A DNA stretch of 64,000 bases from Aliivibrio sifiae (GTDB lineage Bacteria; Pseudomonadota; Gammaproteobacteria; Enterobacterales; Vibrionaceae): NCBI RefSeq assembly GCF_002954705.1, contig NZ_MSCO01000001.1, positions 1,446,066 to 1,510,065 on the forward strand, read 5' to 3'. Under the pieces are notes generated by a model. That model was not told where the DNA came from, made no database searches, and was given only the letters and a program-made list of their open reading frames with translations. Below, piece after piece: positions 6,458 through 59,586 of the stretch. How positions within the stretch are numbered: the first letter of the stretch is position 1; every line of letters starts with the position of its first letter. A program made the translations under genes and the position numbers.

Positions 6458-6460
6458 ATT

Positions 6461-7026: not shown

Positions 7027-7038
7027 AATAGCACCTTA

Positions 7039-7088: not shown

Positions 7089-7096
7089 TACTAAGA

Positions 7097-9226: not shown

Positions 9227-9251
9227 TTTGGTAACAAATTATATTAACTAG

Positions 9252-9893: not shown

Positions 9894-9969
9894 GCTAGTA
9901 CTTACCTAATAATGAGAAATATTGATAGAGCCCTAGTCGTATCATGCACAACAATATGAATGATGACTA

Positions 9970-10070
9970 GCCCTATAACGCCGCATTAAGGTGTGAGCGA
10001 CGCTTGGCTATACTTGAGCGAAGCGAAAACGCCAAGCGTTGCGAATCACTCTTAAATGCTTTGTTAGGCT
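9970..10070 (-). repeat. attC site
   Basis: Minus strand starts GCCTAACAAAGCATTTAAG (a proper RYYYAAC core) and ends TTAATGCGGCGTTATAGGGC. It differs from the site at 9125-9226 at only a handful of positions over about 91 bases, so the two cassettes probably share a recent source array. Confidence 0.88.
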
Positions 10071-12615: not shown

Positions 12616-12631
12616 CGCTCTCTCCACCGGA

Positions 12632-13240
12632 TTAGCTCTTAGTCGCATCGAACGATAAGTCTTCACCATTTGTCCAACCTGCGTCTTTCGCACCACGCTC
12701 TACAACACGTTGACGGAAGATGTCTGATACTTTTTCTGCATCACCAGCAAGCAGTGCTTTAGTCGAACATAGAGAAGCACACATTGGTAGTTTGCCTTCT
12801 GCAATACGGTTTGCGCCGTATTTTTCACGCTCTTCTTTTGATCCCGCTTCTGTTTCTGGTCCACCTGCACAGAACGTACATTTGTCCATTTTTCCACGCT
12901 CAGCAAAAGCACCCTGTTTAGGGAATTGCGGCGCACCAAATGGGCAAGCAAATAAGCAATAACCACAACCGATACAAAGATCTTTGTTATGCAATACAAT
13001 GCCATCTTCTGTGTGTTCAAAACAATCCGCAGGACAAACCGCCATACAAGGCGCATCAGTACAATGCATACAGGCAACTGAGATTGAGGTTTCACCCGGT
13101 TCACCATCGTTTAGTGTTACTACGCGACGACGTTGGATGCCCCACTCTAGTGCATCATCATTTTCGTTTTTACATGCTGTGACACAGCCGTTACATTCAA
13201 TACAACGCGTGGTGTCACATAAGAACTTCATTCTAGCCAT
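12632..13240 (-). CDS. fdhB: Formate dehydrogenase beta subunit, four 4Fe-4S
   Basis: The 202-aa product carries Cys groups CIECNGCVTACK (18-29), CMHCTDAPCMAVCPADC (about 57-73), CIGCGYCLFACP (about 88-99) and a last set CTFC...CASLC, i.e. the binding sites of four 4Fe-4S clusters. It has no C-terminal membrane helix, unlike E. coli FdnH, and therefore relies on FdhC for anchoring. It starts 14 bases after fdhA and is followed by fdhC. Confidence 0.93.
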   Translation of the reverse strand: MARMKFLCDTTRCIECNGCVTACKNENDDALEWGIQRRRVVTLNDGEPGETSISVACMHCTDAPCMAVCPADCFEHTEDGIVLHNKDLCIGCGYCLFACPFGAPQFPKQGAFAERGKMDKCTFCAGGPETEAGSKEEREKYGANRIAEGKLPMCASLCSTKALLAGDAEKVSDIFRQRVVERGAKDAGWTNGEDLSFDATKS

Positions 13241-13253
13241 TTTATATCACCCC

Positions 13254-16109
13254 TTACGCTTTCGTGATTTTACATAGTGTCACTTTGGTTTCCTGCATTT
13301 GTGTTACAGGATCATAACCATAAGTGGTTGCTGTGTTTGCTGCTTCGCCAATAACGTATGGAACCGTACCTTCTGGGTACTTGTTCGTTAAGTCTTCACC
13401 TTGGAATTTACCGCCAAAGTGGAATGGTACGAACGCTAAGCCCGGTTTAACACGACGTGTTACCATTGCTTTAACGTGAATTCGACCTTTCTCTGCACCT
13501 TCAACCCAAACCATGTCACCGTCTTTAAAGCCGATGTCGTTTGCGTCTTTCGGGTTAACTTCGACAAACATTTCTTGTTGAAGCTCAGCAAGCCATGGGT
13601 TTGAACGCGTTTCTTCACCGCCACCTTCGTACTCAACCAGACGACCAGATGTCAGAATAATTGGGTATTCTTTTGACTTGTCTTGATCTTGAATTGTTTT
13701 GTACAACGTTGGAATACGGAAGTTAGCCGCGCGGTCATCCCATGTTGGGTAATCAGCAACTAAATCACGACGTGGTGTGTATAACGGCTCACGGTGCTGT
13801 GGAACACGGTCAGGGAACGTCCATACAATCGCACGTGCTTTTGCATTACCAAATGGCATACAACCGTGTTTAATTGCAACACGTTGAATACCACCAGATA
13901 AATCGGTTTTCCAGTTTTTGCCTTCTGCTGCTACTTTTTCAGCCGCAGTCAGATCGTCCCACCAACCAAGTTGCTTAAGCAGTTTGTCGGTGAATTCTGG
14001 GTGACCATCTTCAATTTCACACCCTACTGGGTAGCTGTCTTCAGCAAGTAGGCTTTCACCTTCAAATTCCACACCAAAGCGGGTACGGAAGTTACCGCCA
14101 CCTTGCGCTACAGGTTTAGACGTATCATAAAGAATGTGCGTACCTGGGTGCTTCATTTCTGGTGTACCCCAACAAGGCCAAGGAAGACCGTAGGTTTCAC
14201 CGTTTACAGGTCCACCTTCTGCTTCTAGCGTTGTTTTGTGGAACGTATGCCAGTTCATTGTGTGCGCTTTAATACGCTCTGGGCTTTGGCCTGTGTAACC
14301 AATTGTCCACATACCTTTGTTGAATTCACGGGTAATGTCTTCAATTACAGGTTGGTTATTCTGATCAATTTTGATGTTTTTGAACAGTTGATCTGAGTAA
14401 CCTAACTTTTTAGTCAGTAGGTACATGATCTCGTGGTCAGGTTTTGATTCAAACAACGGCTGAATCACTTGCTCACGCCATTGGAATGAACGGTTTGATG
14501 CGGTTACAGAACCGTGCGTTTCAAACTGCGTTGTTGCAGGAAGAAGGTATACGCCATCGGTACGATCGTTCATTACTGCTGCAACGGTTGGGTATGGATC
14601 GACGATAACCATCATATCCAGCTTGCTCATTGCTTTTCTGATCTCAGTACCACGTGTTTGTGAGTTTACTGCGTGACCCCAGTAGAACATTGCACGGATA
14701 TTGTCGTTTTGTTCGATGTTTGCTTTATCTTCTAAAACACCATCAACCCAACGAGATACAGGAATACCAAAGTTATTCATTGGCGTTTTGCCGTTGTATT
14801 TACCTTGGTCGAATCGGTTTTTAACCCACTCGTAATCTAGATCCCATACTTTAGTCCAGTGTTTCCATGCGCCTTCACCAACACCGTAGTAGCCTGGAAG
14901 CGTATCAGAAAGAACACCTAAATCCGTTGCGCCTTGTACGTTATCGTGACCACGGAAGATGTTTGCGCCACCGCCTGATTTCCCCATGTTACCAAGAGCA
15001 AGTTCTAGGATACAGTATGCACGTGTGTTGTTGTTACCCGTAGTATGTTGAGTACCACCCATACACCAAACAACACAGCCTGGACGGTTTTCAGAAAGCA
15101 GTTTTGCTGTCTCAAACACTTCTGCTTCTGTAACGCCAGTTACACGCTCTACTTCTGCAGGGTTCCATTTTGCTACTTCTGTGCGGATCTCATCCATACC
15201 AAACACGCGTTGGTTAATGAATTCTTGATCTTCCCATTTGTTTGCAAATACATGCCACAGTACGCCCCAAATAAAGGCAACATCTGAACCCGGACGCAAT
15301 GAAACATAGTGATCCGCTTTTGCTGCTGTACGTGTACGACGTGGGTCGGCAACAACGATCTTACAACCATTCTTCTCTTTTGCGATCAGAATATGTTGCA
15401 TTGCCACTGGGTGAGCTTCTGCTGGGTTTGAACCAATGAACAGCATAGATTTACAGTTATGCATGTCATTAAATGAGTTGGTCATCGCACCGTAACCCCA
15501 AGTGTTTGCTACACCGGCTACTGTGGTTGAGTGACAAATACGCGCTTGGTGATCGACGTTGTTTGTACCCCATAGTGACGCCATTTTACGGTACAAATAC
15601 GCTTGTTCATTATTGTGCTTCGCAGAGCCTAACCAGTACACTGAGTCTGGACCTGATTCTTTGCGGATCTCAAGTGTTTTGTTACCGATCTCTTCAATCG
15701 CTTGATCCCAAGACAGTTTTACCCATTTGCCATTTTCTAGCTTCATTGGGTATTTTAGACGACGTTCGCCATGACCATGCTCACGCAGTGCTGCGCCTTT
15801 TGCACAGTGACCGCCGGCGTTAAATGGGTGATCGAATGCTGGCTCTTGTCCAGTCCATACGCCATTTTGTACTTCAGCGTAGATACCACAACCTACAGAA
15901 CAGTGAGAACAAATGGTACGTTTCACTTCTGTTGGTGCATCAACTGGCACTTCTTTCGCTTGTGCTTTTTTCATCATGCTTGGAACAAACATACTTGCAC
16001 TTGCAACTGCACCCGCAGCAATACTTGAAGTACGCATGAACATACGACGTGTAATGCCCAGCTGGTTCTCTTGCTTTTGTACCGAATCGGAACGTTTAGT
16101 CAATTTCAT
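13254..16109 (-). CDS. fdhA: Formate dehydrogenase catalytic subunit, Cys form
   Basis: The 951-aa product has a Tat signal (RRMFMRTSSIAAGAVAS, Arg 21-22), a 4Fe-4S site (C67, C70, C74, C102) and a bis-MGD molybdopterin oxidoreductase body. The metal ligand is Cys 192 in ARICHSTTV, where E. coli FdnG has selenocysteine; the following Arg/His region (HSTT, GAMTNSFND) is conserved. It oxidises formate to CO2 in the periplasm. The neighbouring regulation with tungstate uptake suggests W may be used, but sequence alone does not separate W from Mo. Length is typical for the Vibrio/Shewanella-type enzyme. Confidence 0.95.
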   Translation of the reverse strand: MKLTKRSDSVQKQENQLGITRRMFMRTSSIAAGAVASASMFVPSMMKKAQAKEVPVDAPTEVKRTICSHCSVGCGIYAEVQNGVWTGQEPAFDHPFNAGGHCAKGAALREHGHGERRLKYPMKLENGKWVKLSWDQAIEEIGNKTLEIRKESGPDSVYWLGSAKHNNEQAYLYRKMASLWGTNNVDHQARICHSTTVAGVANTWGYGAMTNSFNDMHNCKSMLFIGSNPAEAHPVAMQHILIAKEKNGCKIVVADPRRTRTAAKADHYVSLRPGSDVAFIWGVLWHVFANKWEDQEFINQRVFGMDEIRTEVAKWNPAEVERVTGVTEAEVFETAKLLSENRPGCVVWCMGGTQHTTGNNNTRAYCILELALGNMGKSGGGANIFRGHDNVQGATDLGVLSDTLPGYYGVGEGAWKHWTKVWDLDYEWVKNRFDQGKYNGKTPMNNFGIPVSRWVDGVLEDKANIEQNDNIRAMFYWGHAVNSQTRGTEIRKAMSKLDMMVIVDPYPTVAAVMNDRTDGVYLLPATTQFETHGSVTASNRSFQWREQVIQPLFESKPDHEIMYLLTKKLGYSDQLFKNIKIDQNNQPVIEDITREFNKGMWTIGYTGQSPERIKAHTMNWHTFHKTTLEAEGGPVNGETYGLPWPCWGTPEMKHPGTHILYDTSKPVAQGGGNFRTRFGVEFEGESLLAEDSYPVGCEIEDGHPEFTDKLLKQLGWWDDLTAAEKVAAEGKNWKTDLSGGIQRVAIKHGCMPFGNAKARAIVWTFPDRVPQHREPLYTPRRDLVADYPTWDDRAANFRIPTLYKTIQDQDKSKEYPIILTSGRLVEYEGGGEETRSNPWLAELQQEMFVEVNPKDANDIGFKDGDMVWVEGAEKGRIHVKAMVTRRVKPGLAFVPFHFGGKFQGEDLTNKYPEGTVPYVIGEAANTATTYGYDPVTQMQETKVTLCKITKA

Positions 16110-16121
16110 TATAAAGCTCCG

Positions 16122-16319
16122 TTATAGGCTATCGTAATAATCACGAATATGTTGAGTTTCACGATATCCATCGCCTTTCTTCTCAACGTCTTTTTTATCC
16201 GTTATTGTGTTTGCACTTGCTGTCCCTGAAACCGCAGCGGCTACTGTTCCTACGGCTGCAGCAGTTGCAAGGCCCTTCAGTACATTTCGGCGGTTTAGGT
16301 CCGTTTTGTTATTGCTCAT
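16122..16319 (-). CDS. Formate dehydrogenase region Tat-target peptide
   Basis: The 65-aa product begins MSNNKTDLNRRNVLKGLATAAAVG, a clear twin-arginine signal, and after AxA cleavage leaves only about 30 charged residues (ITDKKDVEKKGDGYRETQHIRDYYDSL). Short Tat proteins of this kind are found just before fdhA in many proteobacteria; the role is unknown. It is 12 bases upstream of fdhA in the same operon. Confidence 0.88.
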   Translation of the reverse strand: MSNNKTDLNRRNVLKGLATAAAVGTVAAAVSGTASANTITDKKDVEKKGDGYRETQHIRDYYDSL

Positions 16320-16395
16320 TCAATGCTCCTTTGCTTCCAATTAACTTGGAATGGGCGTCTGTTTTTATGGTTTTAATTCTGTTTTTAGTAACCGC

Positions 16396-16998
16396 TTAAA
16401 TCGCCGTTACTTCAATCTCATTTGGATTTTTTGCAAAACGTGTTTGTTCAACGGTAAAGAACGCCTCAACTAGACACGCCACTGACTTATAGAAATCTGC
16501 ATTTTCAGCGTTATTAATTTGCTCGCATAGAGAGACATACCAAGGTTGAATATGACGATTAAAGAAGCGTTGTTGCAGAACTTCTGCATCACCCGCTTCA
16601 ATAAGCATAGCCATTACCTCACATAATGCTGAGATATGATCTTCTGGCTCTTTTACGTCATCTGCGCGCTCAAAACCTAATTGCATTAAGTCTTGGCGAA
16701 GTGCGACTAATGGTTTTTCCATTAATGCGCCCGCAACATGCCATGAGCCAAACGGCATCACTTCACCACGGCCAACGCCAATGAATAAGTTTTGGTATTC
16801 GTCTGTTAGTGCTTCTTGATTCGATTCTTGAGCGGCTTTTGATACTGCTGCCCACGCTTGGCTCATCTCATGGTTTTCATTGCTTTCCACTTCAAGCGTA
16901 CTTAACCAATCAATCACCATTTGATCAGGTGCAATACGAAATAAATGCGCTAATAAACCATAGATTTCTTGTCTTACTTGTTGTTCATTCATGGTCAT
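16396..16998 (-). CDS. TorD-family chaperone for FdhA maturation
   Basis: The start is at 16998, where TAATG overlaps the upstream stop by one base and AAAGGTG precedes it; the frame further up lies within the upstream gene. The product (200 aa) is all-helical and has YQNLFIGVGRGEVMPFGSWH (about 70-89), the signature of TorD/DmsD chaperones, followed by MEKPL and EPEDHISALCEVMAML. Such proteins bind the Tat signal of a molybdoenzyme and help insert the cofactor; here the client would be FdhA. Confidence 0.9.
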   Translation of the reverse strand: MTMNEQQVRQEIYGLLAHLFRIAPDQMVIDWLSTLEVESNENHEMSQAWAAVSKAAQESNQEALTDEYQNLFIGVGRGEVMPFGSWHVAGALMEKPLVALRQDLMQLGFERADDVKEPEDHISALCEVMAMLIEAGDAEVLQQRFFNRHIQPWYVSLCEQINNAENADFYKSVACLVEAFFTVEQTRFAKNPNEIEVTAI

Positions 16999-18674
16999 TA
17001 CACCTTTAATTGTTTTTCTGGATTTGCTGATAAATCGACGAAGATATCTTTCACTCGACAATCTTCACACATGTATAAACGGTTAATTGAGGCTTCATCA
17101 CTAAAATGAGGGTTACCTTGTAACTTTGTTCTTAGCATTTCAATCATTGATGCAGGAGCAAACGGTTTGCCACACGTTAAACAACATGCTGCATCTTCTT
17201 TATGCATTATTTGTGTTTCTTGACGCTGTGCTTGGCTCCAGTTCATTTGCACTTTCATGCTCAATACTTTTTCTGGACACGCATTCACACACAAGCCACA
17301 TTGAACACAATCTTGCTCAATGAACTTTAAGGTTGGAGAATCAGGATCACTGTGTAATGCACGCGTTGGACATACTGCGACACAACCCATGCACAACGTA
17401 CAATCTTTCGTTTCACAGCTCACACTGCCATAAGGCGCATGAGAAGGCAGAGACTGAATTTCTGTAATTTCGATATTATTTGAAGCCGCATCAGCAGCTA
17501 AGTGATCTAACGCCCCCATTAAGCGAGCACGTTTATTACCTTCTAAAGGTTGTTCAATTACCGCTAATGGTGTATCGATAAGCGTCATTTCGTGTAACGC
17601 TTCCATGTAAAGCACTTGGATGCGTTGAGGATCTAACTCTAGTTGAGATAAGAAAGTCTGTGCAATTTCTACTTCTTGCGTTAATACACGTTGAATGGTT
17701 TCTGGCATTCTGCGGCTGGCAATAAACAGAACTTGTGCAGCCCCATTAACTAACGCAGAGAACCATGTATCAATACCGACAGAAAGAAGCTCATCAAGAA
17801 CCACAGGGATAACATGATCTGGCATGGTTTTAAGAGCCATGACATTGAAGTTTTCATGACGATCACTACAGAAAGCGATAATTGGTGTTTCACCACCCTC
17901 TTTCTTATAGTTCGCTAATAAACGAGACGCAAAGTTTTGTGTTTTCTCAGCTTCTGGTAACGCGTAGCTGATCGCTTCGGTTGGACACGCAGTGGCACAC
18001 GTACCAACACCTTGACAAAGGTATGGGTTAATTTGAATATGATGACCGCTTTCGGCAGTACCTTCACTGGTTAATGCGCCAGCAGGACATGCATCAACAC
18101 AACGCTCACACCCTTTCACGCCACGAGAACTGTGCGCACATAAATCTGGGTTTAAACGGAAATATTTTGGTTTATCAAACGTTCCAACTAAACCTGGTAA
18201 CTCGTCTAATACTTGAGCTAGCGTTGGATAACCACGACCGACTGGATAGTAACCCGGTACTGGCACTTGCTCTGACATTACGCTGTCTAGTTTCATGTCT
18301 AACACAAGATCAAATGCAGTTGCACCAATGGTTGCTTTTGCTAGATTAACGCGTTCACCATTTAGCGTACACTCAACATCAAATGCACCTAAAAAGCCTT
18401 TTACTGATAATTCTTTGGCAAAGTAAACTGTACGCTCTGATTCATGTGCTTGATTTTCTGATTCAGTAGAGACAAGCGTGATGCTGTTTAAATCAGTAAA
18501 CTGCTCAGCAACATCAACAATGATGCGAGTAGGTCCGATAATAACAAGGTTGCCACGGCTTTCGTAACTTACTGTTGGTGGGATCAAGTTGTTCAGCTCT
18601 ACCGTTTGCGAAATAGCAAACTGACGTGCTTTGGCATTTGTTGTTTCAGATTGTGCTAAAAATTGAGATAACAT
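16998..18674 (-). CDS. Multi 4Fe-4S ferredoxin-like protein, fdh operon
   Basis: The start is the ATG at 18674 with AGGTGA seven bases before it; the longer frame adds only eight residues. The 558-aa product has two dicluster regions: CERCVDACPAGAL with CQGVGTCATACPTEA (about 195-235), and CTLCMGCVAVCPTRAL with CVQCGLCVNACPEKV (about 425-475), plus a C-terminal CLTCGKPFAP...CEDC pair that could bind zinc. The middle part looks like an NAD(P)-less Rossmann region (IAFCSDRHENF). It is the first gene of the sigma-54 driven fdh operon. It may move electrons to or from the formate dehydrogenase system; no precise reaction is known to me. Confidence 0.85.
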   Translation of the reverse strand: MLSQFLAQSETTNAKARQFAISQTVELNNLIPPTVSYESRGNLVIIGPTRIIVDVAEQFTDLNSITLVSTESENQAHESERTVYFAKELSVKGFLGAFDVECTLNGERVNLAKATIGATAFDLVLDMKLDSVMSEQVPVPGYYPVGRGYPTLAQVLDELPGLVGTFDKPKYFRLNPDLCAHSSRGVKGCERCVDACPAGALTSEGTAESGHHIQINPYLCQGVGTCATACPTEAISYALPEAEKTQNFASRLLANYKKEGGETPIIAFCSDRHENFNVMALKTMPDHVIPVVLDELLSVGIDTWFSALVNGAAQVLFIASRRMPETIQRVLTQEVEIAQTFLSQLELDPQRIQVLYMEALHEMTLIDTPLAVIEQPLEGNKRARLMGALDHLAADAASNNIEITEIQSLPSHAPYGSVSCETKDCTLCMGCVAVCPTRALHSDPDSPTLKFIEQDCVQCGLCVNACPEKVLSMKVQMNWSQAQRQETQIMHKEDAACCLTCGKPFAPASMIEMLRTKLQGNPHFSDEASINRLYMCEDCRVKDIFVDLSANPEKQLKV

Positions 18675-18738
18675 TGCTTCACCTATTCTTGACCCCATTT
18701 GGGCCTATTCAGCTCTATGACTGGTTTCTAGGTGTTAT

Positions 18739-18760
18739 ATCGCAATAACCGTACCAACTT
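18739..18760 (-). promoter_or_regulatory. Sigma-54 promoter of fdh operon
   Basis: Minus strand TTGGTACGGTTATTGC: GG (18754-18755) and GC (18742-18743) are exactly 10 bases apart, and most other consensus positions (TTGGCACG-N4-TTGC) match. Start of transcription would be near 18730, about 55 bases before the ATG at 18674. Confidence 0.8.
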
Positions 18761-18836: not shown

Positions 18837-18871
18837 GGGACATTTTGTCTCAAATTGGTTCAAAATGTCCC
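18837..18871. promoter_or_regulatory. Paired upstream activator sites, fdh
   Basis: GGGACATTTTGTCTC (18837-18851) and the reverse copy GGGACATTTTGAACC (18857-18871) have centres 20 bases apart, i.e. two helical turns. They lie about 90-110 bases upstream of the -24 element. The same motif is upstream of tupA (54756-54827). Confidence 0.75.
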
Positions 18872-18877: not shown

Positions 18878-19444
18878 CTAGGTGGTCTTTTTTGTCTCAC
18901 TTTCTTGTTCTTTATCGCTTGCAAATTGTTGATATTTATTATCATTCGCGTTTAATGCATCACTGATTTCTACATCATCAACTTCCTGTTCAGCTAACAG
19001 TTCAGGATCTAACTCGCTTTCTTCTTCCTCTACGGGCTCCACCATCCAATCGCGCAATTTAGCCGCTGTTTCGCTATCTAGCTTTGGTGGTGTTGAGTAG
19101 TTAGGCTCATCTTCCATCGCAAATTCTGGATTTAGAAACATCTTACGCAATGCGGCCTTTTTTAAATTTTTATCGACTCCTGTTGCCATAAACTGACTGA
19201 CATTACTGGTGCCATTAATACTAATAAGGTCATCTTCTGTCGGTAAATCTATACGTTTTTCTGTAACCTTTTTTTCCTGTTCAAGCAGATCAACAGCCTC
19301 TTGCTCTGCCTGCGTATCTACTAACTTCTGAGTTGAAATCAGTTCATGTTCTTCAGGAATAACAACAGAGGCTTCATCACTAACTGATTCACCTTGCTGA
19401 ACTTTTCGCTTTCTTAATGACCATCTACTTAGGAAGTTGCTCAC
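18878..19444 (-). CDS. DUF3306 protein of the formate dehydrogenase locus
   Basis: The start is a GTG at 19444 (V-S-N-F-L-S-R-W); the family typically begins with SxFLxRWSxRK, seen here as SNFLSRWSLRKRKV. The product is 188 aa, very acidic and low-complexity, apart from the segment QFMATGVDKNLKKAALRKMFLNPEF (about 88-112) that characterises the family. It overlaps DUF3305 by 20 bases. Genes of this pair sit beside formate dehydrogenase genes in many bacteria; the function is not known to me, a maturation role being likely. Confidence 0.85.
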   Translation of the reverse strand: MSNFLSRWSLRKRKVQQGESVSDEASVVIPEEHELISTQKLVDTQAEQEAVDLLEQEKKVTEKRIDLPTEDDLISINGTSNVSQFMATGVDKNLKKAALRKMFLNPEFAMEDEPNYSTPPKLDSETAAKLRDWMVEPVEEEESELDPELLAEQEVDDVEISDALNANDNKYQQFASDKEQESETKKTT

Positions 19445-19886
19445 TTGCGCGCCCCGCACCTTTACGTTTCTTTCTACGAACTTCTATCAGTTCACCATGT
19501 TTACCAATAAAGGCTTCTAACCATGCTTGCATTGGCAATGGCATACCAATAGATAACACAACATAATCACCATCCATATATTGTCCAATCATACTTTGCG
19601 AAACCGTGATCATTACTGGCGTTAATACGTCGTTATCATTTTCAAAAGCAAAGAATAATTTAGGGTCTTGTGAACTCAGGTTAAAACGATAATCGGTCCT
19701 TTCGTCACGGAAAATCTCTAAATTACGCTCAAATAAAACGGCATTACTTTGAGCCGCGGCTTCTGCGCGTTCATAAAGGTGAATATCACCAATATGCCAA
19801 GAAGGAGCACTCCAACGACCGACTTTTTTAATCTCTTCAATTACTTCAAATTGCAGTGGCCAAACGCTTTCTGTCTTCTGTTCCAC
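19425..19886 (-). CDS. DUF3305 protein of the formate dehydrogenase locus
   Basis: The 153-aa product has the family features WPLQFEVIEEIKKVGRW, RAEAAAQSNAVLFERNLEIFRDERTDYRFNLSSQDPKLFF and a C-terminal basic tail (RRKKRKGAGR). It has no signal or membrane part, so is cytoplasmic. It is divergent from fdhD and overlaps the DUF3306 gene downstream, so the two are likely co-made. Confidence 0.85.
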   Translation of the reverse strand: MEQKTESVWPLQFEVIEEIKKVGRWSAPSWHIGDIHLYERAEAAAQSNAVLFERNLEIFRDERTDYRFNLSSQDPKLFFAFENDNDVLTPVMITVSQSMIGQYMDGDYVVLSIGMPLPMQAWLEAFIGKHGELIEVRRKKRKGAGRASEQLPK

Positions 19887-20038
19887 AAGTTACCCTTCTT
19901 TTTATGAGGTTTTTTATCGCTATTGATAATATAAAGCAATCCTTATACCAACAGCGTTTTATTTCTAATTTATCCTGTGGTATAAATTTTGCGTGTAATA
20001 AACCAATAACCTTAAATTTCACTAATTTGGAGCTTACT

Positions 20039-20878
20039 TTGAGCCAATCACCAAGAATAATAACTACTGGCGCTGTACCTAAACAAACTCTTACTGTAGA
20101 TGTTTATGATGAATACGGTGAGAAGCTGACAAAAGAAGTCGCCTGCGAACAACCATTAACGGTTATGCTGAATTGGCAAGAAGTCGTAACGTTAATGACT
20201 CTGGGTGCTCGCCCTGCTGAACTCGTTATTGGCTATTTAAAAAACCAACACTTTATTAGTGATGTGACGCTATTAGAATCCATCATGATTGATTGGGAAA
20301 CAAAAACAGCGGCGGTGAATACTAAAGAAACCACTGAGCACGTTAAAGAGAATTTAAAGAAGAAGACGGTTACCTCTGGCTGCGGTCAAGGCACCATGTA
20401 TGGCAACGTAATGAAGCAACTTGAGAATTATCAAGTACCTCAAGTAACGATTAATCAATCGGACCTATATGCCTCTTTAGAAGCACTGACCTATCACAAT
20501 GACACTTATAAAGCCGCTGGTGCCGTTCATGGTTGTGCGATTTGCGAAAATAACCAAGTACTTTCATTTGTGGAAGATGTAGGCCGCCATAACGCAGTTG
20601 ATACTCTTGCAGGTGAGTTATGGTTAAACCGTGGTACTGGCGACAATAAGCTGTTTTACACCACAGGTCGTTTAACCTCTGAAATGGTGATTAAAGTCGC
20701 TCAAATGGGCATTCCCGTTCTACTTTCTCGCTCAGGCGTAACACAAATGGGTTTAGATTTAGCTCAGAAATTTGGTATTACCATTATTGCTCGTGCTAAA
20801 GGTAAGCGCTTCCAAGTGTTTGCTGGGCATGAAAAAATCAATTTTGATGTGAAAGGCGAAGCTGCGCTTGGGGATTAG
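20039..20878 (+). CDS. fdhD: FdhD sulfurtransferase, TTG start
   Basis: I set the start at the TTG at 20039: GGAG (20029-20032) is six bases before it, and the product (279 aa) then matches the usual FdhD length of about 277. The ATG at 19856 lies inside the divergent DUF3305 gene and would add 61 unlike residues. FdhD passes sulfur from IscS to the Mo/W cofactor of formate dehydrogenase. The loop TVTSGCGQGTMYG keeps the first active-site Cys but has Gly where E. coli FdhD has the second Cys of its CxxC. GRLTSEMVIKVAQMGIPVLLSRSG is the conserved C-terminal part. Confidence 0.92.
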   Translation: MSQSPRIITTGAVPKQTLTVDVYDEYGEKLTKEVACEQPLTVMLNWQEVVTLMTLGARPAELVIGYLKNQHFISDVTLLESIMIDWETKTAAVNTKETTEHVKENLKKKTVTSGCGQGTMYGNVMKQLENYQVPQVTINQSDLYASLEALTYHNDTYKAAGAVHGCAICENNQVLSFVEDVGRHNAVDTLAGELWLNRGTGDNKLFYTTGRLTSEMVIKVAQMGIPVLLSRSGVTQMGLDLAQKFGITIIARAKGKRFQVFAGHEKINFDVKGEAALGD

Positions 20879-51261: not shown

Positions 51262-53304
51262 CTAACCAACCAAATTATTATACTGGTGATGCTCAGATTT
51301 GGTCGGTAAATAAATAATAAACGTTGACCCTTCCCCAAGCTGGGAGCGTGCTTTTATTTCTCCTCCCGTTTGACTGAGTAAACTTTGGGATACAGAAAGC
51401 CCAAGTCCTGTTCCATCACGCTTAGTCGTATAGAACGGATCAAATATTCGATTCAATTGTTCTGCATTTATTCCAGAGCCAAAGTCTTCAATCTCAATAA
51501 TTGCACCAAGCTCAATCTCTTCTTCATACCAAGTTCTACTGCGAATAATTAACTTACCTTTGCTGTTCATTGCATGAATGCCATTCATTTGTAAATTAAC
51601 TAGAACTTGCAGTAAATGGTGTCGATTTACTTCAACTTTTGGCGGTTGCTCAAAATCAAACTCAACTTCAATATCACGCTTATGTGAACCAGTTCGAACT
51701 AAAGTGACGCTCTCTTCAATAATCGGATTGATGTATTGCCACGTCACCTCATCTTGAATGCCACCCTGTCGACTGTATTGCAATAAACTGCGGGTGATAT
51801 TACGAATACGATCAATCTGCTCCATTATTGCATCGAGTTCTTCAGAAATAACATGAGCACCGTCACCGAGCTCATACTTAATCAGCTCGGCATTACCAAG
51901 AATAACCGCCGTTGGGTTATTGATCTCATGAGCAATACCTGCGGTTAACTCACCTAAAGACGCCAGCTTTTCACTCATCACAAGTTTATCTTGTGCTTGT
52001 TTCAATAATTTAATGTACTGCTCAAGCTCAATCGTCTTTTCATGCAAACTGGCGGTACGAGATTCAACTTTAGATTCTAATTCTTTAGAAGCACTTTGAA
52101 TCTCTATATTTCGTTGTTGCAATTGATCCAACATATTATCAAATTGCTGTGCAAGACTAGCTAATTCATGCCCATTATCTAGCCCTAAATCCCCAATTCG
52201 CCTTTCTTTTCCAAGCTGAACTGATTTCACCACATAATGAATTTTTTCAATTGGTTGAAAAAGATCTCTTGCTCCACGATGCACAAAAATAGTCGATAGT
52301 AATAGAGTGATGAGTATTGTCACCCCAGCTTCCACTAAATTCTGCAAGTATTGCTTAAGTAACGGCCATTCTAAATATCCGGTATACAACATACCTATGA
52401 CTTTATTATCCATGTCTTTTATTGGTTGATACGCAGAGATATACCAATCGTTGTAAACATAGGCTCGGTTAGTCCAACGTTCTCCATTTTCGACCACAAT
52501 TCTTTTTACTTCTGGTGAAACGATGGTTCCTATTGCTCGCCCTTGATTAAGCGATTTATTTGCAAAATCATTATGTAACGGAACATTAGTACTAATGCGT
52601 AAATCATCTAAAAACAGAGTAACAGTACCGTAATTATCTGCGGGTAAGTCTCCCTCAGGGTAAATAAGATCTCGAATCCTATCAACTAAGAGAGTGCTAT
52701 TATTAAGAATAATACCGCTATCAACTATCCACGCTAAATCCCCTTCTTTATCAAAAATAGGAATTAGCGTTCTACTCACTAAACCACGCTTTTCTATGCT
52801 GCCGTCTTTCTTATTAATCACTTGAACCTGAGTGCTCAACTGGGGATTAATATTATACAAATCCTTATTCGTCATTACCTGAAAAAAAGTACGAGAGATC
52901 CCTAAGGATAAGGCTTTTACTGATGACTCAGGAAGGTGCTTACTATAAGAAACAGGATGAACAACAATGAAATCAGAATTATAATTATCTGCTTGATGCT
53001 CAGCCCAATATTGAAGAGCTGGATCATTATCTTTCAATCTTATTTGAAATTGATATGACTCAACAAAACTACGAAGCTCTGCCTCTTGCTCTTGTTGTAA
53101 AAAATCAATGCTATTCTCTGCAACTGATAATTTACTGCCAACATCATTAAGTGCGTTTTGCCACGTATAATGCACAGACCAAAACGCAGTAATAATAACT
53201 AAAGCGAGTAAAGTTAAAAACAAAGGAACGGAGTTTAACCATAGCAAGCGATATCTCACCATGGTTTTTACTCTGTGTTTCCATAAAAGAGGAGATAACA
53301 TCAT
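51262..53304 (-). CDS. Sensor histidine kinase of sigma-54 two-component system
   Basis: The 680-aa product has membrane helix 1 (about 26-45), a periplasmic Cache-like sensor (about 46-320), helix 2 (about 323-341), HAMP (about 342-398), a coiled coil (398-440), the phospho-His 459 in LTAGIAHEINNPTAV and an ATPase domain with EIEDFGSGI and GTGLGLSVSQSLL. This is a DctB/NtrB-like layout. It overlaps the response-regulator gene by four bases. The signal might be formate or an oxyanion, given the neighbouring tupABC and the predicted fdh target; unproven. Confidence 0.9.
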   Translation of the reverse strand: MMLSPLLWKHRVKTMVRYRLLWLNSVPLFLTLLALVIITAFWSVHYTWQNALNDVGSKLSVAENSIDFLQQEQEAELRSFVESYQFQIRLKDNDPALQYWAEHQADNYNSDFIVVHPVSYSKHLPESSVKALSLGISRTFFQVMTNKDLYNINPQLSTQVQVINKKDGSIEKRGLVSRTLIPIFDKEGDLAWIVDSGIILNNSTLLVDRIRDLIYPEGDLPADNYGTVTLFLDDLRISTNVPLHNDFANKSLNQGRAIGTIVSPEVKRIVVENGERWTNRAYVYNDWYISAYQPIKDMDNKVIGMLYTGYLEWPLLKQYLQNLVEAGVTILITLLLSTIFVHRGARDLFQPIEKIHYVVKSVQLGKERRIGDLGLDNGHELASLAQQFDNMLDQLQQRNIEIQSASKELESKVESRTASLHEKTIELEQYIKLLKQAQDKLVMSEKLASLGELTAGIAHEINNPTAVILGNAELIKYELGDGAHVISEELDAIMEQIDRIRNITRSLLQYSRQGGIQDEVTWQYINPIIEESVTLVRTGSHKRDIEVEFDFEQPPKVEVNRHHLLQVLVNLQMNGIHAMNSKGKLIIRSRTWYEEEIELGAIIEIEDFGSGINAEQLNRIFDPFYTTKRDGTGLGLSVSQSLLSQTGGEIKARSQLGEGSTFIIYLPTKSEHHQYNNLVG

Positions 53305-54719
53305 GCGACCTCTTCACTCCACTCTTTAAATTTTCTCTCTAAAGTTTTACGAGCAACACCTAACTGCCTTGCTGCCGCTGACTTGTTCCCGTCATGCAAG
53401 TCAACAACCGTAATTATGTGCTTCTTTTCAACTTCTTTTAATGTCCACTGCTCAGGATATTCATCCATCTCTGGCATGCAAGTACATTCTGTTGGTTCTT
53501 GATTTAAAATCTGCGCTTGATTAGGTGATTGATGCAATGGCGTATCACCTTGTAAACTAGACCAATGCTCTACTGGTGGCTTTCCTAGTAAGATACAACG
53601 CTCAATCATGTTTTTAAGTTCACGAATATTACCAGGCCAATCATAATGAGCCATCGCGACGATATCTTCGTGTGCCCAATGAATAGGCTTTAATCCCATC
53701 TCTTTCGCTATCATGTGCGAGAAATGCTCAGTTAAACAGGCTAAATCGGCTTTACGTTCACGTAATGCAGGCAGAGAAACCGTTAATACGTTTAAGCGAT
53801 AAAATAAATCTTTTCTAAAATTACCCTTTTCAACTTCTTCTAGTAAATTACGGTTAGTTGCGGCAACAATACGAACATCAACGGGGATCTCTTTTTCAGA
53901 TCCAACAGGTCGAATAGCTTTCTGCTCTAACGCTCGAAGTAATGATGATTGCATCCCAATCGGCATTTCACCAATTTCATCTAAAAATAAAGTTCCACCG
54001 TTAGCAACTCTAAATAGCCCTTCCCGACTTTTTTTGGCTCCGGTAAATGCACCAGATGTATGGCCAAACAATTCACTTTCTAAAAGATCTGGGGCAATAG
54101 CACCACAGTTAAGAGGAACAAACGGACCATTTCGATTACTTAATTGATGTAAACCACGTGCAACCAACTCTTTACCCGTGCCAGATTCCCCTTCAATTAA
54201 CACCGCTGCATTTGATGGTGCAAGTTGAGCGATCATTTGTTTTAGTTGTAAGGTTTTATCTGCATTACCAATGATCTCTATTGGATTATTCTTTTCAATT
54301 TCTCTTTGCAATGCAAAATTAGTACGTTCAACAAGGCGACGATCCATACAACGCCTCACTGCTTGCAACATGTTTTCTAAATTAAATGGTTTTAAAATAA
54401 AATCAGCCGCACCTAAACGAAGCGCTTGGATCGCGGTATCTAACTCTGCGTATCCCGTCATAAATATAACGTCGTAGTTTCGAGAGTCACAAGCAATACT
54501 CTCTTGCCACTCTAATCCCGTTTGACCCGGTAAATTAATATCTAAAATAATAAGATCAAGATGGTGAGATTGACGGATAGCTTCTGCATCTTCAATAGTT
54601 CCCGCGGTATGAACTTGACCGAATTGTTTGCTTAATGCTTTTTTAAGTATGGTTTGCATACCTATTTCATCATCAACAACAAGAACTGAGAATGCGTGCC
54701 AATCTGATTTCGTGACCAT
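53301..54719 (-). CDS. Sigma-54 dependent response regulator, NtrC family
   Basis: The 472-aa product has a receiver (1-125; phospho-Asp 60 in LIILDINLPG, Lys in FILKPFN), an AAA+ domain (about 148-385; Walker A GESGTGKE at 177-184, GAFTGA at 223-228 for sigma-54 contact, FLDEIGEM) and a Fis-type helix-turn-helix (about 432-472; KSAAARQLGVARKTLERKFKEW). Cognate kinase gene overlaps downstream. Divergent from tupA, with the palindromic sites 54756-54827 between them. It is the obvious candidate to bind those sites and the identical ones at fdh. Confidence 0.93.
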   Translation of the reverse strand: MVTKSDWHAFSVLVVDDEIGMQTILKKALSKQFGQVHTAGTIEDAEAIRQSHHLDLIILDINLPGQTGLEWQESIACDSRNYDVIFMTGYAELDTAIQALRLGAADFILKPFNLENMLQAVRRCMDRRLVERTNFALQREIEKNNPIEIIGNADKTLQLKQMIAQLAPSNAAVLIEGESGTGKELVARGLHQLSNRNGPFVPLNCGAIAPDLLESELFGHTSGAFTGAKKSREGLFRVANGGTLFLDEIGEMPIGMQSSLLRALEQKAIRPVGSEKEIPVDVRIVAATNRNLLEEVEKGNFRKDLFYRLNVLTVSLPALRERKADLACLTEHFSHMIAKEMGLKPIHWAHEDIVAMAHYDWPGNIRELKNMIERCILLGKPPVEHWSSLQGDTPLHQSPNQAQILNQEPTECTCMPEMDEYPEQWTLKEVEKKHIITVVDLHDGNKSAAARQLGVARKTLERKFKEWSEEVA

Positions 54720-54755: not shown

Positions 54756-54827
54756 GGGTCAAAATGTCCTAATTATTCTAACCTGTATTCTACAAAATGT
54801 ATCCTTTCTAATGAGACATTTTGTCCT
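54756..54827. promoter_or_regulatory. Upstream activator sites, tup operon
   Basis: GAGACATTTTGTCCT (54813-54827) and the reverse copy AGGACATTTTGACCC (54756-54770), with a weaker copy keeping the ACAAAATGT core at 54792-54800. Centres are about 100 and 156 bases upstream of the tup -24 element. Same motif as at 18837-18871. Confidence 0.75.
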
Positions 54828-54916
54828 AATCACATTTTTTGTAAGGTTTTTATGGCAGAATGCCATTCAATTATTTATATACCATTGTTTTATAGATAAA
54901 AGCATCAATTCAAATT

Positions 54917-54934
54917 TTGGCATAGTGATTGCTT
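54917..54934 (+). promoter_or_regulatory. Sigma-54 promoter of tup operon
   Basis: TTGGCATAGTGATTGCTT: GG (54919-54920) and GC (54931-54932) are 10 bases apart, matching TTGGCAC-N5-TTGC well. Start would be near 54944, about 60 bases before the tupA ATG. Confidence 0.8.
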
Positions 54935-55002: not shown

Positions 55003-55824
55003 ATGAACAATAAAATCAGTACATTTTCAGTTATGGCTACACTGGCTCTTGGTTCTTTCTCTGCTGCGAACGTATATGCAGATGACGCAAGCACCATCCG
55101 TCTGGCAACAACAACGAGTACTTACCACTCAGGTTTATTAGATTATTTATTGCCTGAGTTTAAAAAAGATTCAGGTTACGAAGTTCAAGTGCTTGCAGCT
55201 GGCACTGGTAAAGCTCTTAAAATGGGCGAAAACGGTGACGTTGATTTAGTGATGACTCACGCGCCTAAAGCCGAAGCTGATTTTGTTGAAAAAGGTTATG
55301 GTATTGAGCCAAAATCATTAATGTACAATGACTTTGTACTTGTTGGTCCTAAAGCTGATCCTGCACATATTCATGGTATGAAAGATGTTACTGCAGCATT
55401 CAAAAAAATGGCAGAGACTGACGTAACTTTTGTTTCTCGTGGCGATGATTCAGGCACAAACAAAAAAGAATTGAATCTTTGGGCTCAAACTAAGATCGAA
55501 CCTAATTTCGGTGGTTACAAAGCGGTAGGCCAAGGTATGGGACCAACATTAAACATGACCTCTGAACTGCAAGCTTACACACTAACAGACCGTGGTACAT
55601 GGTTAGCTTACCAAAACAAATTAGATCTTGAGATCATGGTTGAAGGCGATAAACGTCTATTTAACCCATACCAAGTAATCCTAATTAACCCTGAACGTTA
55701 CAACAACTTAAACACCAAAGGTGCGCAAGTATTTAGTGACTGGTTAGTTAGCGATAAAGGCCAAGCAATGATCAACAGCTTTAAACTAAGCGGTAAACAA
55801 CTATTTACTGCGGACGCTAAATAA
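55003..55824 (+). CDS. tupA: Tungstate-binding periplasmic protein
   Basis: The 273-aa product has a signal peptide (about 1-26, cleaved at VYA-DD), then IRLATTTSTYHSGLLDYLLPEF with the TTTST oxyanion loop, DLVMTHAPKAE, FVSRGDDSGTNKKELNLW and GQGMGPTLNMTSELQAYTLTDRGTW, signatures of the TupA family. It binds tungstate (family members prefer W over Mo strongly) and passes it to TupB. First gene after the sigma-54 promoter. Confidence 0.93.
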   Translation: MNNKISTFSVMATLALGSFSAANVYADDASTIRLATTTSTYHSGLLDYLLPEFKKDSGYEVQVLAAGTGKALKMGENGDVDLVMTHAPKAEADFVEKGYGIEPKSLMYNDFVLVGPKADPAHIHGMKDVTAAFKKMAETDVTFVSRGDDSGTNKKELNLWAQTKIEPNFGGYKAVGQGMGPTLNMTSELQAYTLTDRGTWLAYQNKLDLEIMVEGDKRLFNPYQVILINPERYNNLNTKGAQVFSDWLVSDKGQAMINSFKLSGKQLFTADAK

Positions 55825-55827
55825 TTC

Positions 55828-56526
55828 ATGAGTATATTAGCCACCTCTCACGAAGCAATTCAATTACTGTTCAGTGGTGATACGGCATTATGGAGCATCG
55901 TTGGTGTTTCATTTTCTGTGTCATTATTTGCAATGGCGGTTGTATTACTCCCTGCTTTATTACTGGCATTTGCGCTTGCTTATGGCTCGTTTCCGGGACG
56001 GTGGCTGCTGCTCTCTATTATTAATACCTTACAATCAGTACCTACCGTCGTTATCGGTTTATTGTTGTATATGATGCTTTCTCGCTCAGGACCTCTGGGA
56101 GATTGGCAGCTACTATTTACGCAAGAAGCAATGGTCATTGGCCAAATGTTTATCTGCTTCCCTATCATGGTTGCTATGATGCATGGTGCATTTCAACACA
56201 GTGATCGCCGAGTATGGGAAACTGCGTTTACACTCGGCGCTTCATTACCGCGTGCTTTTGGTAGCTTAATTTGGGAAACTCGATTCCCTATCCTAGCCGC
56301 CGTTATTGCTGGATTTTCTCGGATCATTACCGAGGTTGGTTGTTCTATGATGGTCGGCGGTAACATCTTTAATGCTACACGAAACATTCCAACCGCAATC
56401 GCTATGGAAAGCCAAAAAGGCGCATTTGCTCAAGGGATTGCTCTTGGTATGGTGTTATTAATCTTAGCGCTAGTGTTAAACTTTTTACTCTCTATCACTC
56501 GTGGTAAAGGGTATTTACGTACTTAG
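55828..56526 (+). CDS. tupB: Tungstate ABC transporter permease
   Basis: The 232-aa product has five or six membrane helices (e.g. VVLLPALLLAFALAYGSF, TVVIGLLLYMML, IALGMVLLILALVLNFLLSI) and the ABC-coupling loop ETAFTLGASLPRAFGSLIWETRFPILAAVIAGFSR (about 132-166). It starts three bases after the tupA stop codon. Close to TupB/CysU-type permeases. Confidence 0.92.
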   Translation: MSILATSHEAIQLLFSGDTALWSIVGVSFSVSLFAMAVVLLPALLLAFALAYGSFPGRWLLLSIINTLQSVPTVVIGLLLYMMLSRSGPLGDWQLLFTQEAMVIGQMFICFPIMVAMMHGAFQHSDRRVWETAFTLGASLPRAFGSLIWETRFPILAAVIAGFSRIITEVGCSMMVGGNIFNATRNIPTAIAMESQKGAFAQGIALGMVLLILALVLNFLLSITRGKGYLRT

Positions 56527-56538
56527 TAGGCATAAAAA

Positions 56539-57246
56539 ATGACAATAAGAATTACTGCCGATAATCTATCAATGCGATTTAATGATCGTGTGCTTTTCCA
56601 CATCCCGCATTTGTCATTAGGGCCAAAAGAATCAGTCTATTTGCGTGGCGCTAATGGTGTGGGTAAAACAACACTGCTTAAGATTTTATCTGGTTTACAA
56701 ACCCCGACGGCAGGTAAGCTCAACCTTAATCAACCACACTGGACGGCTCGCCTATTAGGACGATCTGGAAATAATCAAATAGTCTACTTACATCAGAATC
56801 CATTTCTATTTGATGGTACGGTTTTCGACAACGTTATTTATGGCATGAAATACACCACCATGAATAAACTTGAAAAACGCAACATGGTGATCAATGCGCT
56901 ACGTATGGTAGGCCTTGAGACCTTAGCTGATGAACACATTTCCGTATTATCTGGTGGTGAAAAACAACGTGTCGCTATGGCTCGTGCGTGGGTATTAAAA
57001 CCTTCTATTTTATTAATGGATGAACCAAGCGCCAGCGTTGACCAAGAATCCATCGATTTATTGGTTATTATGGCAAAAGATCTGCTCGAACGCGGTTCAA
57101 GTATTGTCGTAACTAGCCATCAAACTAACGCCTTAACTGAAATTTGTCATCGCCAATGGACCATTTCAGACGCAAAGCTGATAGAATCTACCCCATTAAA
57201 AGTGATTGTTAGCAAGGATAAGTATGCTCCAGCCAAAGCAAACTAG
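56539..57246 (+). CDS. tupC: Tungstate ABC transporter ATPase
   Basis: The 235-aa product has Walker [12 protein letters not shown] (about 39-49), Q-loop VYLHQNPF, signature [15 protein letters not shown] (about 139-153), Walker [14 protein letters not shown] and His in VVTSHQ. Length is that of a single-domain ATPase. Its last 23 bases overlap mobA. Confidence 0.92.
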
Positions 57247-57808
57247 TTGGGTGATTTTAGCGGGCGGACAAGCCCGTCGCATGGGTGGCCAAGATAAAGG
57301 CTTTGTTTCATTTCAAAACAAACCTCTTATCGAACATGCAATAGAGATACTAACGCCTCAAACCGATCAGATTGCCATCAATGCTAATCGCAGTATCGAA
57401 CAATACTCAAGTTACGGCGTCACTTTTTCTGACCAGTTTAGCGATTACCCAGGGCCATTGGCAGGAATGCATTCTGGTTTAATCAATATGAATTCTGATT
57501 GGGTTGGTTTTATTCCTTGTGACTCCCCTAACTTACCTGACAACCTTGTTGCTTTATTGTGTGATGCGGTAAAAGAAGACACTGATATTGTGGTCGCTCA
57601 TGATGGCGAATACATGCAACCAGTTGTCACTTTAATGCATAAACGTATCATTCCTAAAATTGATGCTTTCTTAGCGCGCGGTGATAGAAAAATCATTCTA
57701 TTATACAAAGAGTGTAATACCGTCTTTGCTGATTTCTCTAATTACCCAAATGCTTTTATCAATTTGAATAGCCCTCAAGAACTCGAACAATTTGGATCTT
57801 TATTATGA
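57224..57808 (+). CDS. mobA: Molybdenum cofactor guanylyltransferase
   Basis: I place the start at the ATG at 57224 (AAGGA seven bases before), six residues inside the longest frame. The 194-aa product has [22 protein letters not shown], the nucleotide-binding signature, then [17 protein letters not shown] and [13 protein letters not shown]. It links GMP to molybdopterin to give the MGD form that FdhA needs. It overlaps tupC and mobB-moeA and so is in the same operon. Confidence 0.93.
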
Positions 57809-59586
57809 GCTTAACGACTGCGTCTATCCCACTATTGGGTTTTGCTGCTTATAGCGGCACAGGTAAAACGACATTACTAGAAAAGCTATTACCAAAACTG
57901 AATGAAATGGGACTAAAAGTCGCAGTCATCAAACACGCTCATCACAATTTTGATATCGACCAAGAAGGTAAAGACAGCTACCGTTTGCGTAAAGCCGGTG
58001 CAAGCCAAATGTTGATCAGCTCTCGTTTTCGTAATGCATTAATTACGGAAACACCTGATGAAGAAACCACCTGTCAGCAACTCATCAATAAGTTAGATCA
58101 AACTGAACTTGATTTGATTCTTATTGAAGGCTTTAAACAACTGCCATACACCAAGATTGAATTGCACCGTGATGAAGTCGGTAAGCCGTGGATCTTCCCT
58201 GAAGATGACAACATCATAGCTATTGCCGCAGACTCAAAAGCAGAATCTAAACTTCCTCAAATGGATATCAATGATACCGATTCAATCACTGCCTTCATTG
58301 TTGACTACGTAAAACAACACCAGCATAAACAACAAAGTGACTTATCTGCTAATTGTGATGAATTATCTCCTGCGTTTTTATCAGTTAGCCAAGGCAGAGC
58401 TAAGATTTTAGAGACTATTACACCTCTAAAATCAAAAAGTAATGTCTCTTTAGTTGAATCCATTAATGCATTAGCGGCTCAAGATATTTTATCGCCGATT
58501 AATGTTCCTCAGCATAATAATTCAGCAATGGATGGCTATGTGATTTGTGGTGATGACTTAGACCGTAATGACTACACAGTGGTTGCCGAGATCATGGCAG
58601 GACACAGTTACGATCCCCCTCTTCAACATGGTGAAGCAGCAAAAATCATGACAGGAGCACCAGTGCCACAAAATGGTAATGCGGTGATCATGCGTGAACA
58701 AGCTATTCAAGAAGGCAATCAAGTACGCTTTGATACTGGAAAATCTGGCATTCGTAAAGGCCAAAACGTCCGTTTAGCAGGTGAAGATCTGGCTATCGAT
58801 CAAATCTGTGTAGCTAAAGGCTCACGTATTACTGCCCCTGAAGTTGGCATGCTTGCTTCGCTTGGTATCGCCTCTATTCCTGTGTTTAATAAAATTAAAG
58901 TCGCTATCTTCTCTACTGGCGATGAAGTTCAAGCTCCAGGTGAAGCACAAAAAGCCAACTCTATTTACGATTCAAATCGCTTCACGTTAACGGCATTATT
59001 GCAGAAGATCGGTTGTGAAGTGATTGATTTCGGTATCATTGAAGACAGTGAAACCGCTCTAGAATCAACGCTTTCTCAAGCATCACAACAGGCAGATATG
59101 ATCTTATCTTCTGGTGGTGTGTCGGTTGGCGATGCCGATTACATCAAAACGATTTTAGACAAACTAGGCAATATTAACTTCTGGCGTATTAATATGCGTC
59201 CGGGTCGCCCTCTTGCATTTGGTCATATTGGTGATACTCCGTTCTTTGGTTTACCGGGTAACCCTGTTGCGGTAATGGTGGCGTTTTTACAATTTGTTGA
59301 GCCTGCATTACGTAAACTTCAAGGCGAAGACAATTGGCAACCAGAGACTTTTACGGCAATTGCTAAAGAGTTTATTCGCTCTCGCACTGGCCGAACTGAA
59401 TACAGCCGTGGTATTTACTCGATTAACCAAAATGGTCAAATGGAAGTAGTAACTACAGGTAAACAAGGCTCTGGTATTTTACGTTCAATGAGCGAAGCCA
59501 ATTGCTTAATTGAAGTGCAACCTGAGGTCGAATCGATAGATATTGGTCAGAAAGTAACAATTATTCCATTAGGAACAAGAGTTTAA
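57805..59586 (+). CDS. Fused MobB-MoeA cofactor protein
   Basis: The 593-aa product joins two proteins. Residues about 8-172 are MobB: Walker [64 protein letters not shown]. Residues about 192-590 are Moe[67 protein letters not shown]. MoeA inserts molybdate (or tungstate) into adenylated molybdopterin; MobB is a GTP-binding helper for MobA. Normal lengths for both parts (about 170 and 400), so the fusion is intact. Last gene of the tup operon, overlapping mobA by four bases. Confidence 0.93.

Follow-up and report, generated by a model that had tools for sequence, protein, structure and literature searches.

A predicted sigma-54-dependent two-component system for formate dehydrogenase, tungstate uptake and cofactor synthesis in Aliivibrio and other Vibrionaceae

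Described systems closest to the locus

Transport of molybdate and tungstate is usually controlled by metal sensing of the ModE or TunR/TaoR type. In Escherichia coli, a sigma-54 activator, FhlA, governs a formate dehydrogenase together with accessory genes, and responds to cytoplasmic formate through sensor domains of its own. The system considered here resembles the FhlA regulon in joining a sigma-54 activator to a formate dehydrogenase and its accessory genes, but it has a receiver domain and a separate kinase, a different enzyme, and a metal transporter within the predicted regulon. With activators of the NtrC, ZraR and AtoC type it shares the domain plan, the promoter type and the upstream palindromes, while the regulon content and the site, GGACA-N3-TGTCC, are different. 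A further precedent comes from Desulfovibrio, where one regulator, TaoR/TunR, reportedly addresses both tupABC and a tungstoenzyme with opposite effects on each (Rajeev et al. 2019, as cited in PMC10102598). That regulator is a one-component, metal-responsive protein, whereas the present system has two components, uses sigma-54 and is proposed to activate both targets; the likeness is that a single regulator serves tupABC and the tungstoenzyme. Because the TaoR precedent already pairs a tungstoenzyme with tup, the new part would be the sigma-54/two-component wiring and the site of the activator.

Two studies bear closely on the gene content. In Methylorubrum extorquens, tungstate uptake is grouped with cofactor genes for formate dehydrogenase in moeA1-mobB-tupBCA; co-regulation was suggested there from gene order, and the accessible part of the report mentions no sigma-54 system (PMC13197769). 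In the RpoN regulons of V. parahaemolyticus and V. cholerae, fdh and VP1501 are RpoN-dependent as here predicted, and the accessible text names neither the activator, nor its site, nor a link between the two operons, all of which are proposed here (PMC9817140). The original prediction, made from the letters of this DNA, held that a sigma-54-activated regulon of an enzyme and its metal would be new; this stands for the wiring and the activator's site, but not for RpoN control of both operons, which had been published for V. parahaemolyticus. A search of part of the openly licensed literature found no description of a shared activator, its site or an enzyme-metal-cofactor regulon, and likewise no named tup activator in Vibrio and no binding test of the regulator.

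The tup and fdh loci of Aliivibrio sifiae

The window, by which we mean the whole stretch of 64,000 nucleotides analysed, holds a two-component gene pair on the minus strand that is divergent from tupABC-mobA-mobB/moeA (plus strand, 55003-59586), and an fdh operon (11599-18698) that lies 36 kb from tup (Table 1). This separation had been part of the original prediction and holds in the window, but not everywhere: several relatives carry fdh, tup and the two-component genes inside a stretch of about 20 kb. Elsewhere in the window there are two families of direct repeats of 91-95 nt, with two copies each, at 6363-7491 and 9129-10066, between small ORFs. The second family, which starts with TAACGCC and ends with GTTA, resembles integron attC sites, so that a cassette array may be present here.

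Table 1. Positions in the window of the genes, promoters and candidate regulator sites of the fdh and tup loci
Feature	Position	Strand	Basis or conservation
fdh cytochrome b subunit	11599..12696	-	PF01292
fdh iron-sulfur subunit	12632..13240	-	Pfam
Formate dehydrogenase catalytic subunit	13254..16109	-	TIGR01591, 478.5 bits, below the cut-off of 666
Chaperone, nitrate-reductase delta family	16396..17061	-	PF02613
First fdh-operon gene, multi-cluster ferredoxin-like protein	16998..18698	-	Relatives at E <=1e-60 in 26/61 genomes
Sigma-54 promoter of the fdh operon, TTGGTACGGTTATTGC	18742..18757	-	Motif scan; conserved in the genus
F2, candidate regulator site upstream of fdh, AGACAAAATGTCC	18838..18850	-	Conserved in the genus
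F1, candidate regulator site upstream of fdh, GGACATTTTGAAC	18858..18870	-	13/14 genus fdh loci; the 14th, L042, seen separately
DUF3305 and DUF3306 genes adjoining the fdh operon	18878..19886	-	PF11749, PF11748
fdhD, formate dehydrogenase accessory protein (start codon uncertain)	19856..20878	+	PF02634
Third sigma-54-like site, before the DUF3305-DUF3306 genes, TTGGTATAAGGATTGC	19936..19951	-	Motif scan
Sensor histidine kinase; sCache_3_3 sensor domain, HisKA, HATPase_c	51262..53304	-	Pfam PF17202, PF00512, PF02518
NtrC-type response regulator, proposed sigma-54 activator	53301..54719	-	Receiver, AAA+ and Fis-type HTH by Pfam
T1, candidate regulator site, GGTCAAAATGTCC; originally read as AGGACATTTTGACCC at 54756-54770 (-)	54757..54769	+	Present in 14/14 genus tup loci
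Degenerate third site between T1 and T2, TACAAAATGTATCC	54791..54804	+	Weak; core kept in most of 14 genus sequences
T2, candidate regulator site, AGACATTTTGTCC; originally read as GAGACATTTTGTCCT at 54813-54827 (+)	54814..54826	+	Core kept in 14/14 genus loci
Sigma-54 promoter of tupABC-mobA-mobB/moeA, TTGGCATAGTGATTGC	54917..54932	+	Sigma-54 site in 26/27 tupA upstream regions
tupA, tungstate-binding protein	55003..55824	+	255.5 bits, below the curated NCBIfam cut-off of 400
tupB, permease	55828..56526	+	164.5 bits, below the TupB cut-off of 320
tupC, ATP-binding protein	56539..57246	+	TupC 102.8 bits, below the cut-off of 400; another ABC family scores better
mobA	57206..57808	+	TIGR02665 above cut-off; ORF overlaps tupC
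mobB-moeA fusion	57805..59586	+	NF011060, 997 bits against a cut-off of 532; ORF overlaps mobA

The regulator scores above the gathering thresholds of PF00072, PF00158 and PF02954, which places it among NtrC-type (group I) bacterial enhancer-binding proteins by domain content, and it carries both a Walker A sequence, GESGTGKE, and a GAFTGA loop. Across 20 aligned orthologs the G and the FTGA of this loop are invariant, save for one protein with S for A, and the residues GNKS, LG and RKTL-RK of the helix-turn-helix show no variation. None of the 25 NCBIfam models listed for the regulator reaches its curated cut-off, the formate hydrogenlyase activator (FhlA) equivalog included (243.2 bits against 830). 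A V. fischeri ES114 protein, VF_1401, appears among class I activators in the available part of PMC10162802, where no function is stated for it; with an A. fischeri ortholog present in L126, VF_1401 is probably the counterpart of this regulator. The kinase is probably located in the membrane, as read by eye, and its orthologs adjoin the regulator in many of the loci mapped. Fifteen kinases were aligned, those of L153 (stop codon), L155, L159, L171 and L174 being left out. A sequence search with the sensor domain against the PDB gave a single match, meaningless at E 0.31, and the AlphaFold model of the domain, with a mean pLDDT of 55.3, was too poor for comparison. The abstract of PMC10469919 names VP1502 and VP1503 and may bear on the two-component pair.

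None of the TupA, TupB and TupC equivalog cut-offs of NCBIfam is reached; by these models the transporter is Tup-like, and the name tupC follows from gene position. Its relative 3muq/VP1501 adds support, VP1501 being the TupA of V. parahaemolyticus (PMC5517513). The PDB relatives of TupA include both 3muq and 5my5; aligned to the latter, the protein retains the TTTS motif and an arginine that matches the selectivity residue R118 of D. alaskensis TupA. Both are named for oxyanion binding in the accessible text of PMC5517513. From its genetic linkage with tup, this formate dehydrogenase is likely to use tungsten, although it may instead carry molybdenum.

The sequences and palindromes that had been named upstream of tupA were all found in place, and so was the same palindrome at fdh, where two copies, 20 bp apart, stand upstream of the sigma-54 promoter. 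The distance from the site centre to the -24 element is 98 bp for T2 and 88 bp for F2. Both promoters are conserved and have two mismatches each to the consensus TGGCAC-N5-TTGCA (GG-N10-GC). T1 lies about 40 bp upstream of the start codon of the regulator, and its off-phase position (155 bp) next to that gene suggests that it might serve autoregulation. Between T2 and the sigma-54 promoter there is a terminator-like hairpin (54852-54866, plus strand) with a T-rich stretch after it; the stem of the hairpin is not retained in the other genus sequences. The third sigma-54-like site was found in similar form in 13 of 13 aligned genus loci (13 of the 14 were aligned; in L042 DUF3305 falls past the contig end), and no palindrome with up to two mismatches occurs within 330 bp upstream of it.

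Taken singly, these elements are within chance. With up to one mismatch, GACANNNTGTC is matched 19 times in the window (20.0 expected), GGACAWWWTGTCC occurs at 13 places genome-wide, as often as its reversed control, and TTGGCAY-N5-TTGC has 6 matches against 3.4 expected, a number reached in 17 of 100 shuffles. One further candidate in the window, GACAAAATGTC at 10662, was put down to chance, there being no composite at that place. The combination of palindrome and sigma-54 element is beyond chance. The base composition of the window predicts about 0.007 cases per genome of a palindrome followed after 65-95 bp by a sigma-54 element, whereas the strict composite pattern, GACAWWWTGTC-N65..95-TGGYNY-N5-TTGC, occurs exactly twice in each of 14 Aliivibrio genomes, against no occurrence of the reversed control pattern. 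Matched to gene positions, one of the two is at tup and the other at fdh, as had been predicted for a motif and promoter shared by these operons. In the genus alignments the palindromes and the -24/-12 elements form conserved blocks amid more variable stretches.

Cytoplasmic metal sensing offers another account of these operons, in which metal availability, read by ModE or a TunR/TaoR-type sensor, mainly controls tup and fdh, and the sigma-54 promoters play a secondary part. In Desulfovibrio, tupR (DVU3193) has been described as a tupABC regulator, and a ModE-like pattern, allowed three mismatches, is matched 26 times in the window where 18.1 would be expected, with as many in 4 of 100 shuffles. 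None of the 26, however, falls within 54756-54934, and the N-terminal DNA-binding domain of ModE (TIGR00637) has no match in the genome, although the same profile matched 7 of 14 control genomes. A modA gene is present on another contig. From these searches, which concerned ModE, we regard control chiefly by a cytoplasmic metal sensor as very unlikely, and sigma-54 activation from the shared palindrome as the better reading.

Distribution of the motif and of the regulator gene

The regulator (E <=1e-150) is present in 111 of 150 Vibrionaceae genomes, and the composite occurs in 83 of these and in 4 of the other 39. No genome of the 150 matches the reversed control pattern. A Fisher test of this co-occurrence gives 9e-13, which overstates the case because the genomes are related. 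Of the four exceptions, one (G025) has a fragmented regulator gene, two (G473 and G535) are genomes 87% and 85% complete with the site at fdh, and the fourth (G019) has no regulator and a composite that is not at fdh. In the locus of G025 (L151) the regulator, fdhD and fdh genes are all in several pieces, which may be due to sequencing indels. Conversely, 28 of the 111 regulator-bearing genomes have no match to the strict pattern; the two of them that were inspected, G021 and G029, have looser versions.

Outside Aliivibrio there are 88 distinct composite promoters, of which 61 precede the first fdh gene, 25 are on the regulator-tup side and 2 are elsewhere. Those on the regulator-tup side are no more than 400 bp from the regulator and are directed away from it; all 25 belong to one genus (g12), and tupA was confirmed beside the site in the two that were mapped (G024 and G035). 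One of the two off-target composites (G524) precedes genes whose translations read by eye as nifU and nifS; the other is that of G019.

In a smaller set of 61 genomes, regulator orthologs (at least 61% identity) are found in 24, that of A. sifiae included, fdh (E <=1e-60) in 26 and tup (E <=1e-40) in 27. Where the regulator occurs, in 24 genomes, fdh and tup are always present too, and 34 of the 37 genomes without it have neither; the other three are G023 and G025, with both, and G033, with tup only. A looser scan, which accepted a palindrome with up to two mismatches upstream of a sigma-54 site, found the palindrome in 23 of 27 tupA upstream regions, the sigma-54 site being present in 26. Some genomes, G036 among them, have the regulator but no palindrome within two mismatches at tup. 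Both elements were likewise found in 23 of 26 fdh upstream regions. The misses are G023, G041, in which the composite stands before DUF3305 in place of fdh, and L042 (G008), which was missed because the contig ends near the gene and whose sites were seen on separate inspection. In L144, L179 and L180, all of one genus, the interval from fdhD to the kinase contains two more TupC-like stretches (25-28% identity).

Among the 61 fdh promoters from other genera, 56 have a gap of 71-73 bp between the -24 element and the strict palindrome closest to it, and the other 5 a gap of 93 bp. Centre distances, counted with sites of two mismatches included and with some genomes entered twice because two locus sets were pooled, cluster near 77-79, 88, 98-99, 108-109 and 139-140 bp, in steps of about one helical turn. 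Off these steps are T1 (155 bp, in 14 Aliivibrio sequences), groups at 53 and 127 bp with four sites each, and scattered singles.

It might be argued that a different sigma-54 activator, or some other regulator, binds these sites and that the neighbouring two-component pair is merely linked to them genetically. The genome holds many related activators (26 scored matches, mostly paralogs), and binding of the sites by this particular regulator is itself deduced from sequence. Against this, motif and regulator gene are largely present or absent together in Vibrionaceae, and even distant families show enrichment of the motif on the upstream side of the regulator, as described below. In addition, G023 and G033 have other activators and lack both this regulator and the palindrome: in G023 no palindrome and no convincing sigma-54 site was seen up to 450 bp from either operon, and G033 retains a sigma-54 site at tup. 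These cases fit a loss of the site together with the regulator, though two are few. We consider binding by another protein very unlikely; the comparison of genomes strongly indicates that the adjacent NtrC-type regulator activates the fdh and tup operons via GGACA-N3-TGTCC.

Beyond Vibrionaceae, relatives of the regulator with 47-57% identity (E <=1e-120) were found in 23 of 368 other genomes of the class. In maps of 40 loci one cluster keeps recurring, made up of fdh genes, DUF3305/3306, fdhD, kinase, regulator, tupABC, mobA and mobB/moeA; many of the distant maps are cut by contig ends or miss members, and a few yielded no kinase or no tup genes. The motif test covered 22 of 25 distant loci, L158, L173 and L175 having little or no upstream sequence. 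A palindrome with up to one mismatch stands upstream of the regulator in 8 of the 22, against 0.26 in shuffles (none of 300 reached 8) and 0-1 loci for four control palindromes of the same shape; with up to two mismatches there are 25 sites for the motif against 3-10 for the controls. A sigma-54 site directed away from the regulator, to the tup side, is present in 12 of the 22 (shuffles 0.74), as opposed to 3 in the opposite direction. In none of the nine distant loci examined did a motif stand directly before the first fdh gene. Composites occur elsewhere in the fdh cluster in L159, L168, L176 and L177, and L154, L174 and L175 have a sigma-54 site with one mismatch before the delta-subunit gene and no palindrome. 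These results make tup-side control the best-supported ancient feature; control of fdh appears clear in Vibrionaceae and is indicated in a few others. Conservation of the palindrome in relatives had been put forward as a test of the original prediction, and the palindrome is kept at both operons in Vibrionaceae and enriched at the regulator-tup side in distant Gammaproteobacteria. The small regulon that had been foreseen, of formate dehydrogenase, uptake of its metal and MobA/MobB-MoeA, thus gains support from conservation, regulator co-occurrence and enrichment at a distance.

Published data on V. parahaemolyticus are in keeping with a role for sigma-54. According to the accessible parts of PMC9817140, deletion of rpoN lowers VP1510-VP1515 (fdh) about 9- to 27-fold (log2 -3.2 to -4.75) and VP1501, labelled hypothetical, by log2 -1.45 in RNA-seq. 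The same source lists the VP1510 and VP1501 promoters with sigma-54 sites and marks both genes with V. cholerae RpoN ChIP-seq peaks, and it also reports VP1508 as RpoN-dependent. In an EMSA, RpoN did not bind the VP1510 promoter, and the authors judged the effect to be indirect, granting that other components or co-factors may be required in vitro (PMC9817140). The site of VP1508 is one base apart from the site before DUF3305 in L144. Among 227 genomes of the genus to which G024 belongs, 15 match the published 19-mer of the VP1501 promoter, and in all 10 loci examined of these 15 it lies between the regulator and tupA, with palindromes (of one and two mismatches) that begin 129 and 84 bp upstream of it. 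In V. cholerae, VC1522-VC1523 may be the regulator and tup genes. If so, a quorum-sensing regulator binds that same intergenic region, as AphA ChIP-seq places a target between VC1522 and VC1523 (PMC6855506).

Proposed mechanism and significance

From sequence comparison we think it very probable that the two-component genes at 51262-54719 encode a sigma-54 activation system devoted to a single enzyme together with its supply chain. The kinase would perceive a signal and phosphorylate the response regulator, which phosphorylation would presumably activate. The regulator would then bind GGACA-N3-TGTCC palindromes some 77-110 bp upstream of the -24/-12 promoters, often present as at least two copies, and form an AAA+ oligomer. 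With the DNA looped, it would contact RNA polymerase-sigma-54 by its GAFTGA loop and open the fdh and tupABC-mobA-mobB/moeA promoters. As a result, formate dehydrogenase, tungstate uptake and the late steps of cofactor synthesis would be produced jointly, with mobA and mobB/moeA probably carried on the tup transcript and tungsten as the likely metal of the enzyme.

The kinase may respond to formate or a related small carboxylate, although this is a guess. It is conceivable, and we put it forward tentatively, that a formate- or carboxylate-sensing two-component system of Vibrionaceae and other Gammaproteobacteria provisions the metalloenzyme on demand, so that apo-enzyme, importer and cofactor assembly are triggered together by the substrate in place of metal sensing of the ModE type. 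A variant of this explanation has the kinase sense a shortage of the oxyanion, tungstate or molybdate, rather than formate, so that metal status sets expression of the enzyme. The regulator is divergent from tup or adjoining mob genes in most maps that hold both, and the clearest sites in the distant loci are on the tup side; yet linkage to fdhD and fdh is common and suggests that the cue is the substrate or redox state, and we hold the variant to be somewhat doubtful, slightly more so than sensing of the substrate.

In summary, an uncharacterised sigma-54 activator, present in 111 of 150 Vibrionaceae, may now be assigned a specific regulon by prediction, together with a DNA site and a physiology that can be tested. 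Genes of V. parahaemolyticus that depend on RpoN, one of them labelled hypothetical, can be read as parts of a single tungsten/formate programme. The logic of trace-metal supply in these bacteria would also be a different one, with activation linked to the enzyme as against repression by the metal.
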